Assembly: GCA_017431465.1 (NCBI GenBank)
Contig: JAFRLA010000025.1
Coordinates: 1-37,795, forward strand
DNA: 37,795 nt
Source of the DNA: Candidatus Saccharimonadota bacterium
GTDB lineage: Bacteria; Patescibacteriota; Saccharimonadia; Saccharimonadales; Saccharimonadaceae
Reading direction: 5' to 3'
The notes under the pieces were generated by a model. That model was given only the letters and a program-made list of their open reading frames with translations. It was not told the DNA's origin and made no database searches. Shown one piece after another: positions 2,811 to 37,268 of this stretch (position 1 is its first letter; each line of letters starts with the position of its first letter). The translations under genes and the position numbers were made by a program.

Positions 2811-3356
2811 ATGTTAAAGAATCATACTAAAGCTAAATCCGGGTTCACAATTATCGAGGTCGTGCTTGTTCTCGCTATTGCTGGTCTTATCTTCTTGATG
2901 GTCTTCTTGGCCTTGCCAGCTCTCCAGCGCTCCCAGCGCGATACCCAGCGCCGCGACGATCTGTCCGGTCTATCTACCCGTATTACCGACTACCAATCTA
3001 ACAACCGCGGCAAAGTCCCTAGCGACACTAAGTGGGCCGACTTCCTTCGCAAATACATGAAACAGTCCGGCGATGACAGCATTAAAAATACCGGAAGCGA
3101 AGAATGGACCGAAAAAATGAACGAAGGTGAATTCGTCGATCCAGACGGCTCCGCCTACGGCATCAAGGTCGAAAGCGGCAACTCCGGGACCCTAAATAGC
3201 GATTTTAAAGAGAACAATCATCTTATCCATGTTTACTACGGCGCTAAATGCGGCGACGACGAAAGCGTCGTCCCGGCGACCGGCGGCTCTTCTCGCCAAA
3301 TTGCCTTCCTCTACCCTCTTGAAGGCGGCGGTGTTTACTGCGGCTCGAACAGCTAA
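2811..3356 (+). CDS. Type IV pilin-like protein (prepilin N-terminal methylation motif)
   Basis: The 181-residue prepilin has a short basic leader ending in KSG, then FTIIE, the classic type III cleavage/methylation signal (cut between G and F, with E at mature position +5). A hydrophobic alpha-1 helix follows (about residues 12-35) and then a soluble C-terminal domain. Two cysteines (in AKCGDD and VYCGS) near the C-terminus could form the D-region disulfide loop. The ATG at 2811 is chosen because it has AGAGG 7 nt upstream and gives a normal leader; the upstream ATG at 2748 lies inside the promoter. Saccharibacteria use type IV pili for twitching and host contact. Whether this is the major or a minor pilin cannot be told. 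Confidence 0.85.
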   Translation: MLKNHTKAKSGFTIIEVVLVLAIAGLIFLMVFLALPALQRSQRDTQRRDDLSGLSTRITDYQSNNRGKVPSDTKWADFLRKYMKQSGDDSIKNTGSEEWTEKMNEGEFVDPDGSAYGIKVESGNSGTLNSDFKENNHLIHVYYGAKCGDDESVVPATGGSSRQIAFLYPLEGGGVYCGSNS

Positions 3357-3375
3357 TTAAGCTAAAGACATTCTT

Positions 3376-3436
3376 AGAAAGCTTCCTCGCGCAGAGGAAG
3401 CTTTCTACATAAGCATTTGACCTCAAAAAGCTTATG
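3376..3436. terminator. Tandem hairpins between convergent pilin and DUF4868 genes
   Basis: A 13-bp perfect inverted repeat (3376-3388 with 3394-3406, 5-nt loop) lies about 20 nt after the pilin stop. A second 7-bp repeat follows (CATAAGC 3408-3414 with GCTTATG 3430-3436). Neither has a good U tract on the plus strand. The position between two convergent genes suggests a bidirectional transcript end or mRNA 3' stabilisation. Confidence 0.5.
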
Positions 3437-3471
3437 GCACTATATTGCGAAATTATTAACTTTTATGCTGT

Positions 3472-13405: not shown

Positions 13406-16452
<3,047 letters not shown>

Positions 16453-27971: not shown

Positions 27972-29762
27972 TTAACTTATCGTCTTCTGGACTTTTTCCC
28001 TAGTAAAGAATTCTAATTTATCCCCAACTTCAAGCTGGATCTTATGCTCAGTCGATAATGCCAGACCACCAACTTCCCCGGCCTCCAGTTTATCAACCTT
28101 AATCTTCTCTTTCTGAACACTCTCGACTTTAACCTCGCCAAGCAGCTCTTTCTTACGGTAAGCTCGCGCCAACATCCCGGCCGAAACCGAGCCATCCGTA
28201 ACCTCACCCCCAGCAATAATCGAAGTTTTCTCGGTCCGGAAAACGCCCTGTACTTTCAAAGCCCCGGTCGGAGTTTCGATAATCTCCGCATCCAAAAGCT
28301 CGCTCATCGCCGCTTTAGCGTCGTCTAACAGTTCGTAAATAACTTTATAACATCGAATTGGCACATTATCGCGCGCCGCCATCTTCGCAATATTCGTCGG
28401 CACAGTCACATTAAACCCGTAAATCACCGTGTTTTCGCCATTCGCCATATAGACATCGTTTTCCGTTACGTCACCCACACCCGTCGCGACGATATTCAGC
28501 GTAATTTCGCCCTTCGTATCAATCATTTTTAACGAATCCACGACCGAAGTTACCGAGCCTAAGACATCGCCCTTAATTAAGACATTAAACATCTTCGAAT
28601 TATCCGCTGTATTCATCATTCGAAGTAGGTCCGAAGATGTCACGTTCGACGAAGCTGAAGCATCCGCCGCACCTTGGGCATTAAGTAGCGCCATCTTCCG
28701 CGCGGTTTTCTCGTCAGCAACTTCAATAAACTGATCACCAAAATTCGGCAGTTCCTTAAAACCAGTTACTGTTACCGGGGTCGACGGCGTCGCCTTGCCC
28801 TTCGGCTTTCCCCGGAAGTCCAACATTGTTCGCACTTTTGCATATGACGAGCCAGCAACAATGAATTCGCCGACTTTTAATTCACCGCCCGTAACCAGCA
28901 AGTTCACGACCGACCCTTTCCCGACCTCCATATGACTCTCAATCACTAGACCTTCAGACGGGATATCGACGTCGGCTTTTAAGTCCTCGACATCAGCCGT
29001 CAAAAGAATCATATCCAGCAATTTATCCAAATTCTCCCCAGTTTTTGCCGAAATCGGCACCATCACAACATCGCCGCCCCATTCCTCTGGCTGAAGTCCA
29101 TGTTGCGACAAATCCGCCATCGTCCGCGGCACATCTGCGCCCTCGCGGTCAATTTTATTAATCGCGACAATAATTTTCGCATTCGCACCCTGTGCAAATT
29201 TAATCGCCTCAACCGTCTGCGGCTTAACGCCATCATCCGCCGCCACCACAATCACTACAATATCAGTCAGCATCGCGCCATGCTGACGAATCGCCGCAAA
29301 GGCCTCGTGACCTGGCGTATCCAAAAACGTAATAATTCGATCATCATGTTTTAGTTGATAAGCTGAGATATGCTGCGTAATTCCTCCAGCCTCACCTTCG
29401 ACAGTTTTCTTATGCAGGAGCGTGTCCAGCAACGTCGTCTTACCATGATCGACATGGCCCATCACCGCCACAACCGGCGGACGCGAAACCGCTTTGTCCG
29501 AAAGCTCATGCTGAATATTACCAATCTTCGTCGCCGAATTCTTTTTCTCAAGTCGCACGCCCTCAATCCCCAGCTCCTCAATAATCAAAGAAGCCGTATC
29601 AAAATCCAACCGCTGGTTAATCGTCGCAACAACCCCCTCCTTAAAGAGCTCGCCAATCAGCGTCGTAACCGAAAGCCCGAGCTCATTTGCTAGCTCGTCA
29701 ACAGTAATCGACCCAGCAATCTGGATCACCTTTTCTGGCTCTTGGTTTTCTTTTGCACTCAT
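27972..29762 (-). CDS. infB: Translation initiation factor IF-2
   Basis: GTPase that places initiator tRNA on the 30S subunit. The 596-residue product has one IF2_N domain (VDELANELGLSVTTLIGELF, residues 21-40), the G domain (GHVDHGKT at 102-109, DTPGHEAF, NKID, SAKTGENLD), then domains II, III and IV (KVQGVFRTEK). The long N-terminal extension found in many bacteria is absent. TAAAAT (29771-29776, preceded by TGG) is 8 nt from the ATG, so the leader is about 2 nt without a Shine-Dalgarno. nusA and rbfA, its usual neighbours, are not here. Confidence 0.95.
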   Translation of the reverse strand: MSAKENQEPEKVIQIAGSITVDELANELGLSVTTLIGELFKEGVVATINQRLDFDTASLIIEELGIEGVRLEKKNSATKIGNIQHELSDKAVSRPPVVAVMGHVDHGKTTLLDTLLHKKTVEGEAGGITQHISAYQLKHDDRIITFLDTPGHEAFAAIRQHGAMLTDIVVIVVAADDGVKPQTVEAIKFAQGANAKIIVAINKIDREGADVPRTMADLSQHGLQPEEWGGDVVMVPISAKTGENLDKLLDMILLTADVEDLKADVDIPSEGLVIESHMEVGKGSVVNLLVTGGELKVGEFIVAGSSYAKVRTMLDFRGKPKGKATPSTPVTVTGFKELPNFGDQFIEVADEKTARKMALLNAQGAADASASSNVTSSDLLRMMNTADNSKMFNVLIKGDVLGSVTSVVDSLKMIDTKGEITLNIVATGVGDVTENDVYMANGENTVIYGFNVTVPTNIAKMAARDNVPIRCYKVIYELLDDAKAAMSELLDAEIIETPTGALKVQGVFRTEKTSIIAGGEVTDGSVSAGMLARAYRKKELLGEVKVESVQKEKIKVDKLEAGEVGGLALSTEHKIQLEVGDKLEFFTREKVQKTIS

Positions 29763-29820
29763 ATCTTTTTATTTTACCACATTCTCTAGGTTTTTGAAAA
29801 TGCCCATACTTTTTTGAACC

Positions 29821-29855
29821 AATAAAAAGCGGCCCGGAGCATAAACTCCAGGCCG
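29821..29855 (-). terminator. Intrinsic terminator of the large RNA
   Basis: On the minus strand CGGCCTGGAG and CTCCGGGCCG form a 10-bp stem (one U-G wobble) with a 6-nt loop, followed by CTTTTTATT. It lies about 60 nt upstream of infB. Confidence 0.8.
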
Positions 29856-30183
29856 TGAACACATATATATGTAAAACAGACGTCCATGTCTGTCGTTCAA
29901 AGTGTTCACTTTAATGTACTTTATGGGGGGTCGAGTTTTCAGGCAATGTTGGAATTGTTCCAGTCCGGCGTGCAATCTTAAAGAGCGGTTTTCGAAAACT
30001 AGTATTTTACTTAATTCAATGCGGTATGGTATTTTGCACCATATGATTCAGAACACAACTGGTTTTATTTACGGGTTACAATAAGAGCGAGGCTTTATTT
30101 ACTCTTATTGTAGATTACTAATTCCCTCCCCTCTTAAAGTGCCGCCAGCGATCTGGCGCTCGCCTGATTCTCGACCTACCCTT
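29822..30183 (-). ncRNA. Large structured RNA of unknown family (~360 nt)
   Basis: This coding-free stretch has its own minus-strand promoter (TGA-TATAAT, 30190-30198; start near 30183) and an intrinsic terminator (29830-29855 plus U tract). A closing helix pairs GGTCGAG (30170-30176) with CTCGACC (29929-29935); inside it CAGGC (30162-30166) pairs with GCCTG (29940-29944). Local hairpins lie at 30143-30158, 30077-30112 (11 bp) and 30025-30043, and a 3' domain is closed by 29855-29862 with 29902-29909. The terminator contains a U-G wobble that would be a C-A mismatch on the other strand, supporting the minus orientation. I could not match RNase P, tmRNA, SRP, 6S or T-box signatures. Confidence 0.65.
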
Positions 30184-30189
30184 TTGTTT

Positions 30190-30198
30190 ATTATATCA
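30190..30198 (-). promoter_or_regulatory. Promoter of the large RNA
   Basis: TGA-TATAAT on the minus strand. The predicted start (about 30183) is 2 nt before the closing helix of the RNA begins, which supports the RNA boundary. Confidence 0.6.
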
Positions 30199-30223
30199 CA
30201 CTTCATAATAAAAATAAATACCC

Positions 30224-30252
30224 TTGCAAGTTTTTTTGCCTTGCGTTATAAT
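30224..30252 (+). promoter_or_regulatory. tRNA-Asn promoter
   Basis: TTGCAA (30224-30229), 17-nt spacer, TATAAT (30247-30252). The start would be about 5 nt before the mature tRNA. Confidence 0.65.
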
Positions 30253-30263
30253 AGTAAACATAT

Positions 30264-30338
30264 TCCCGGGTAGCTCAATGGTGGAGCAAGAAGCTGTTAA
30301 CTTCGAGGTTGCCGGTTCGAGCCCGGCCCCGGGAGCCA
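30264..30338 (+). tRNA. tRNA-Asn (GTT)
   Basis: Cloverleaf with acceptor TCCCGGG/CCCGGGA, D-arm AGCTC...GGAGC, anticodon loop CTGTTAA (anticodon GTT), T-arm GCCGG-TTCGAGC-CCGGC, discriminator G and an encoded CCA. Confidence 0.95.
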
Positions 30339-36916: not shown

Positions 36917-36922
36917 ACCATT

Positions 36923-36931
36923 ATTATACCA
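36923..36931 (-). promoter_or_regulatory. Extended -10 promoter of mazG-like gene (leaderless)
   Basis: TGG-TATAAT on the minus strand, six bases, then the ATG at 36916. Confidence 0.55.
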
Positions 36932-36972
36932 TGCAGACATCAAAAAGACGCAAGAAGCGCCAAGTAAATTTA

Positions 36973-37079
36973 AAGAAAGCCTAAAAGGTGGTTAGATTGG
37001 CGTTTTCTCCGGACGAAGCGCGCCTTTTCGGCGAGCAAGTCCGGAAAAACGTCAAGATAGTCACCTATTAGGCTTTCTT
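36973..37079 (-). ncRNA. 3'-UTR RNA element, copy 2 (after the 66-aa gene)
   Basis: Imperfect inverted repeat of about 41 nt per arm (36973-37014 with 37039-37079) around a 24-nt apex that itself contains a CGCC/GGCG hairpin. The stop codon of the 66-aa gene (37068-37070) lies in the first arm as read on the minus strand. It shares the conserved internal segments with 33879-34000 but has a different 5-bp apical stem (CGGAC/GTCCG). Confidence 0.6.
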
Positions 37080-37268
37080 AGCTGGGCCACGACGAGAGAT
37101 GCGACCACCTTTAGCCCCAGCGATACGAGCTAAAGCTTTATTTGCGGCAAAGCCGCCAGTATGACCATTACGGCCACCTTTTTGACCAATGCGTGCGTAA
37201 AATTCTTTACCGTATTTTGCGCGATTTGTTTCAGCAGCTTTGATGCCGCCGGCTTTGGTTCCTGCCAT
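37068..37268 (-). CDS. Small basic Gly/Lys-rich protein (KGG-like)
   Basis: The 66-residue protein is rich in Gly, Ala, Lys and Arg, with repeated GGI, KGGR and GGF elements (GQKGGRNGHTGGFAANKALA, then AGAKGGRISRRG). The look is that of small conserved KGG-type or nucleic-acid-binding proteins, but I cannot name the function. AAGGAT precedes the ATG. A strong promoter (37333-37361) gives a leader of about 55 nt with a small CCTCT/AGAGG hairpin. Its stop codon is embedded in the long 3' hairpin element, suggesting post-transcriptional control. Confidence 0.75.
   Translation of the reverse strand: MAGTKAGGIKAAETNRAKYGKEFYARIGQKGGRNGHTGGFAANKALARIAGAKGGRISRRGPAKKA

Follow-up and report, generated by a model that had tools for sequence, protein, structure and literature searches.

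The bacterial RNAs most comparable in size to the RNA described here are class A RNase P RNA (RF00010), which also shares its closed multi-helix layout, and tmRNA (RF00023), which is likewise encoded by a stand-alone gene. 6S RNA (RF00013), an RNA polymerase ligand that serves as a template for short product RNAs, is also rod shaped and stand-alone and has a closing stem, a likeness that extends only to how the two RNAs might work, and SRP RNA (RF00169 and RF01854) resembles it in rod shape. Some mRNA leaders, such as the greA leader (RF01769), contain a terminator and give off a small RNA; in these, a promoter, a structure and a terminator precede a gene that is read from the same strand. The genomes of Saccharibacteria are very small, and the bacterium that carries the present locus is a tiny parasitic one; little has been described about the small RNAs of this group, and we found no catalogue of them in the literature.

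The RNA encoded between infB and tRNA-Asn in this genome departs from each of these systems. It gave no match to the RNase P RNA model and contains neither the tRNA-like domain nor the tag frame of tmRNA. Compared with 6S RNA, it is twice as long, carries an extra 3′ three-way junction, lacks a model match and is present in only two species. It also lacks an SRP RNA model match and, as judged by eye, the apical GGAA/helix-8 core, and its distribution is too narrow for an SRP RNA. A scan of the block against all Rfam families gave nothing at the gathering level and only chance matches at E-values up to 10, the best being the greA leader (16.9 bits, where the cut-off is 60; E = 1.5, a chance-level score); the locus also differs from that leader in the separate infB promoter located after the terminator. 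The copy in the sister species similarly matched no Rfam model.

Identification of the block as RNase P RNA or tmRNA was rejected, as it gave no RF00010, RF00023 or ARAGORN match and the genuine genes are found elsewhere in this genome, on contig C6, where canonical RNase P RNA (G000:C6:19210-19549) scored 245 bits and canonical tmRNA (G000:C6:14622-14976) 90 bits. Since both of these RNAs are ordinary and located on that contig, the block RNA cannot be a missing copy of either. The preliminary description had proposed a stand-alone structured RNA of no known family, representing either a strongly diverged housekeeping RNA or a new large RNA class. The stand-alone RNA is supported by the Rfam result, by its own promoter and terminator and by conservation with compensatory changes in a sister species. 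Conversely, a strongly diverged housekeeping RNA is not supported, given the canonical RNase P RNA and tmRNA genes elsewhere and the failure to find the RNA in 172 other genomes of the genus, and a new large class is an overstatement for an RNA carried by two sister species only.

The RNA lies in a gene-free block of the window (the whole stretch of DNA analysed, 37,795 nucleotides) in which the ORF list contains no ORF of at least 80 amino acids. The following elements frame it:

29763-30263: gene-free block flanked by the divergent genes infB (27972-29762, minus strand) and tRNA-Asn (30264-30338, plus strand)
30224-30252, plus strand: divergent tRNA-Asn promoter, TTGCAA-17-TATAAT, identified by promoter scoring
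30190-30198, minus strand: extended −10 promoter of the RNA gene, TGATATAAT, read from the sequence and with a counterpart in the sister species
29771-29779, minus strand: separate infB promoter, TGGTAAAAT, an extended −10 element 8 bases before the infB start codon at 29762

The promoter of the RNA gene reads TG-A-TATAAT on the minus strand (TG at 30198-30197 and TATAAT at 30195-30190) and is followed by AAACAAAAGGGU and then by a long foldback. The predicted unit of about 360 nt starts near 30183 and ends near 29824. All of the elements named in the preliminary description (the gene-free block between infB and tRNA-Asn, the extended −10 promoter, the start, the closing helix, further helices and a terminator about 360 nt downstream) were recovered on the minus strand. 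A plus-strand reading was rejected because neither a promoter nor a terminator is present on that strand. The neighbours are infB, tRNA-Asn, a small protein without a Pfam match, YbjQ, FemAB and an S1-domain protein; no reverse transcriptase, such as would adjoin a retron ncRNA, was recognised at the locus from the neighbouring genes and the ORF list.

We searched 174 genomes of the genus (its own genome and 173 congeners) by blastn, and the RNA proved to be conserved, at the orthologous position, in a single congener out of 173, Saccharibacteria isolate RGIG2350 from goat ileum (JAFRBS010000018.1). Neither blastn nor a covariance model built on the 3′ domain found it in the remaining 172 genomes, and the same model revealed no convincing further copy in 393 genomes sampled from the order. 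Phages and plasmids yielded no relevant homologue and viral contigs no match, exact-pattern scans included. The gene is present as a single copy in its own genome. The two RNA-bearing genomes are sisters in a tree of the IF-2 N-terminus (support 85/98) and share the placement of the RNA between tRNA-Asn and infB, with FemAB and S1-domain genes nearby. In most other congeners examined in which tRNA-Asn adjoins infB, the tRNA lies less than 200 bases from infB and the RNA is absent. The simplest history is that the RNA was gained once, in an ancestor common to both species. The RNA of the sister species is about 330 nt long; its promoter region has TATAATARAYAAAAGGGU in common with that of the window, and a complete TTTACA-17-TATAAT promoter was scored at the equivalent position. 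A BLAST match in another congener, G018 (89% over 34 nt), was a chance match inside a polysaccharide deacetylase-like gene, and weak covariance matches in G013 and G087, which in context were a terminator and a coding sequence, were dropped; a weak covariance match in G108 was marginal.

At the 3′ end of the RNA, both sequence and pairing are conserved in the following two elements:

29856-29899, minus strand: compact, sequence-conserved three-way junction, defined by comparison with the sister species
29824-29855, minus strand: intrinsic terminator with an 11-bp stem and a U tract, identified by terminator prediction and kept in the sister species

The junction consists of a closing stem (UGRAC/GUUCA) and two hairpins (GACAGAC..GUCUGUU and ACAU..AUGU), and the terminator, beginning at 29855, comprises the stem-loop CGGCCUGGAGUUUAUGCUCCGGGCCG followed by CUUUUUAUU. 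The last 81 nt, which cover both elements, are 91% identical to the sister species by blastn. All 27 predicted pairs of this domain are kept in both species; its three stem changes (A-U to G-U, G-C to G-U and U-G to C-G) leave no pair changed on both sides, and the changes in the terminator preserve pairing. A constraint on the DNA itself, close to the infB promoter, is a less likely contributor to this conservation. Folded alone, the 3′ part gave a z-score of −5.9.

The remainder of the RNA is predicted to form a rod, in which the following features were distinguished:

29926-30183, minus strand: long imperfect rod of about 258 nt with a branched and variable apex, supported by folding and by an arm-swap test
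30170-30176, minus strand: 5′ strand of the closing helix, GGUCGAG, pair probability about 0.9
30134-30165, minus strand: segment of the 5′ arm with residual conservation, AGGCGAGCGCCAGAUCGCUGGCGGCACUUUAA, p = 0.0015 in a local alignment to the sister-species RNA
29950-29964, minus strand: ACYGGAACAAWUCCA, in an asymmetric internal loop of the 3′ arm, 13 of 15 positions identical in the local alignment
29929-29935, minus strand: 3′ strand of the closing helix, CUCGACC, pairing with 30176-30170 in the fold

The whole RNA had a minimum free energy of −122.6 kcal/mol (z = −6.8), which none of 100 dinucleotide shuffles equalled, and the sister-species RNA a fold z-score of −5.1; the rod folded alone gave z-scores of −4.6 and, at −82.0 kcal/mol, −5.7. 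In the sister species, the closing helix differs in sequence yet remains complementary (GAGCCAAGC/GCUUGGUUC), so that 30170-30176 and 29929-29935 covary in the one comparison that the two known sequences provide. Conserved segments were CGCUGGC..UUUAA on the 5′ arm and, opposite to it, ACYGGAACAAWUCCA, which lies at an equal distance from the arm end in both species (p = 0.10 when taken alone). The local alignments of both arms combined (p = 0.0005) indicate that the rod arms are homologous, while their overall identity was not clearly above that of shuffled sequence. Between the two species, infB agrees at only 54% of third codon positions, so that sequence free of constraint is expected to be close to saturation.

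We compared the pairing of native arms with that of arms crossed between the species. The native arm duplexes reached −63.3 and −56.1 kcal/mol (z −6.7 and −7.0), with none of 1000 shuffles as good. In contrast, the crossed arms gave only −25.4 and −34.3 kcal/mol (z −0.6 and −1.1), which is the chance level, so that both arms have changed together. This arm swap is the strongest evidence that selection acts at the RNA level and not merely on the DNA. A pair-by-pair alignment of the rod, optimised for identity and thus indicative only, had double-sided changes at 16 of its 47 pairs. In addition, the sense strand of the sister species folds more stably than the antisense strand, as expected if G-U pairs count.

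With its own promoter and terminator, a fold beyond chance and pairing conserved in a homologue, the locus has the features of a stand-alone structured RNA gene. The stretch very probably encodes a free-standing folded RNA, and this RNA is probably the product of a real, new and narrowly distributed structured RNA gene rather than a housekeeping RNA or a member of a widespread class. Some function at the RNA level is likely, judging from the sequence comparisons. In the mechanism that we propose, the gene would be read in the infB direction from between the divergent tRNA-Asn and infB promoters, transcription being expected from the promoter and terminator visible in the DNA. The product would be stable and would act in trans as an RNA–protein particle. 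The conserved junction and the internal-loop motif GGAACAAWUCC would provide a specific recognition surface, and the rod, which has kept its shape but hardly its sequence, may serve as a double-stranded scaffold or a decoy. Action as such a putative particle is quite possible, if tentative; a stand-alone, lineage-specific non-coding RNA gene together with this tentative mechanism is the reading that we consider reasonably probable. Conceivably, though this is more speculative, the RNA represents a new family of one host-dependent Saccharibacteria sub-lineage, with a constant junction and a rod that exchanges almost all of its sequence yet stays paired; such an RNA might be the RNA component of a particle imitating double-stranded RNA or a bound substrate.

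The main rival explanation is that the RNA is a cis-acting 5′ leader of infB, in which termination or read-through tunes the amount of IF-2 (attenuation). The RNA is indeed on the same strand as infB, in both species some 60 nt separate the end of its terminator from the infB start, and the gene order is conserved. However, the infB promoter, which is of the ancestral type seen in the genus, lies between the terminator and the start codon, and many congeners carry the same TGTGGTAAAAT element in front of infB. Since only eight bases separate this promoter from the start codon, infB appears to be served separately by a nearly leaderless mRNA, and because infB keeps a promoter of its own, the RNA probably stands alone rather than acting as a leader. 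Blocking the terminator would cost 10-13 kcal/mol, no antiterminator fold shared by both homologues was found, and most congeners manage without the RNA. A role as a leader is thus rather unlikely.

It is similarly improbable that the rod is a selfish or structural long-hairpin element, functionless as RNA, that lies beside an ordinary terminator. Long hairpins are common in this genus: 260 kb of its DNA contained 122 hairpins against 30 in shuffled sequence, about fourfold, and many of these are long intergenic rods, so that a rod alone says little about function. The most negative z-score in a scan of the window (−7.6) was obtained for 36921-37175, a block containing a long intergenic hairpin with 34-nt arms (36973-37079), and larger rods are known, such as the nearly perfect intergenic one beside the tmRNA gene (L112 5190-5450; G000:C6, about 14089-14349; z −10.8). 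The rod at infB, however, is single copy in its genome, is retained at the same site in the sister species despite the near saturation of infB third positions, and has maintained its pairing through double changes, and its promoter and 3′ domain are conserved. What is distinctive is the combination of promoter, rod, conserved 3′ domain and terminator, retained in a second species.

A diverged 6S or SRP RNA that the Rfam models miss is very unlikely. The rod shape would suit it, and these models gave no match in the RNA's own genome and none above cut-off in the relatives sampled (30 for RF00013, 6 for RF00169 and 20 for RF01854). Nevertheless, both functions should be general, whereas the RNA occurs in just 2 of 174 congeners and hence cannot be the genus-wide answer to the missing 6S and SRP RNAs. 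Furthermore, sequence conservation falls on the 3′ three-way junction instead of an apical GGAA helix or a promoter-like bubble in the centre, and neither species gave an Rfam match to these families even at E-values up to 10. That the conserved 3′ block regulates infB as DNA, with a palindrome (ACATATATATGT) near −100 and an incidental rod, is scarcely credible: the palindrome does fall within 31 identical bases and the block does lie upstream of the infB promoter, but the outer stem survives via a G-U pair, which is no palindrome in DNA, pairing persists through the changes in the terminator, and the rod and its promoter would be left unexplained.

As a probable stand-alone RNA gene, the locus is a concrete target: an apparently large RNA gene is kept in so reduced a genome, with its rod under structure-only constraint. 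It also exposes a testable genus-wide question, as standard models find no 6S or SRP RNA. The 6S RNA and both bacterial SRP RNAs of the genus, none of which scored above cut-off, are either strongly diverged or absent. In another family of the order, a below-cut-off 6S candidate of 32 bits (L113 1564-1717; G037:C51) lies some 400 nt away from the gene for RNase P RNA.

Several further observations concern the surroundings of infB and tRNA-Asn and the hairpins of the genus. infB appears to be leaderless in both RNA-bearing species (window 29762-29779; L046, about 1618-1635), and in many congeners it has a leader with a Shine-Dalgarno site. In G018, a different rod of about 180 nt is located in the infB 5′ leader, between the promoter and the Shine-Dalgarno site (L033, about 3275-3454). 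Truncated repeats of the tRNA-Asn 3′ part adjoin the intact gene in several congeners (L023, L025, L026 and L033), a pattern such as elements integrating at tRNA-Asn leave behind. The only Rfam response to the rod beside tmRNA came from a microRNA-precursor model that does no more than detect a long hairpin. On the same contig, a 28-bp hairpin with 96% complementarity (L112 10239-10303; G000:C6) adjoins the RNase P RNA gene and is probably a strong shared terminator.
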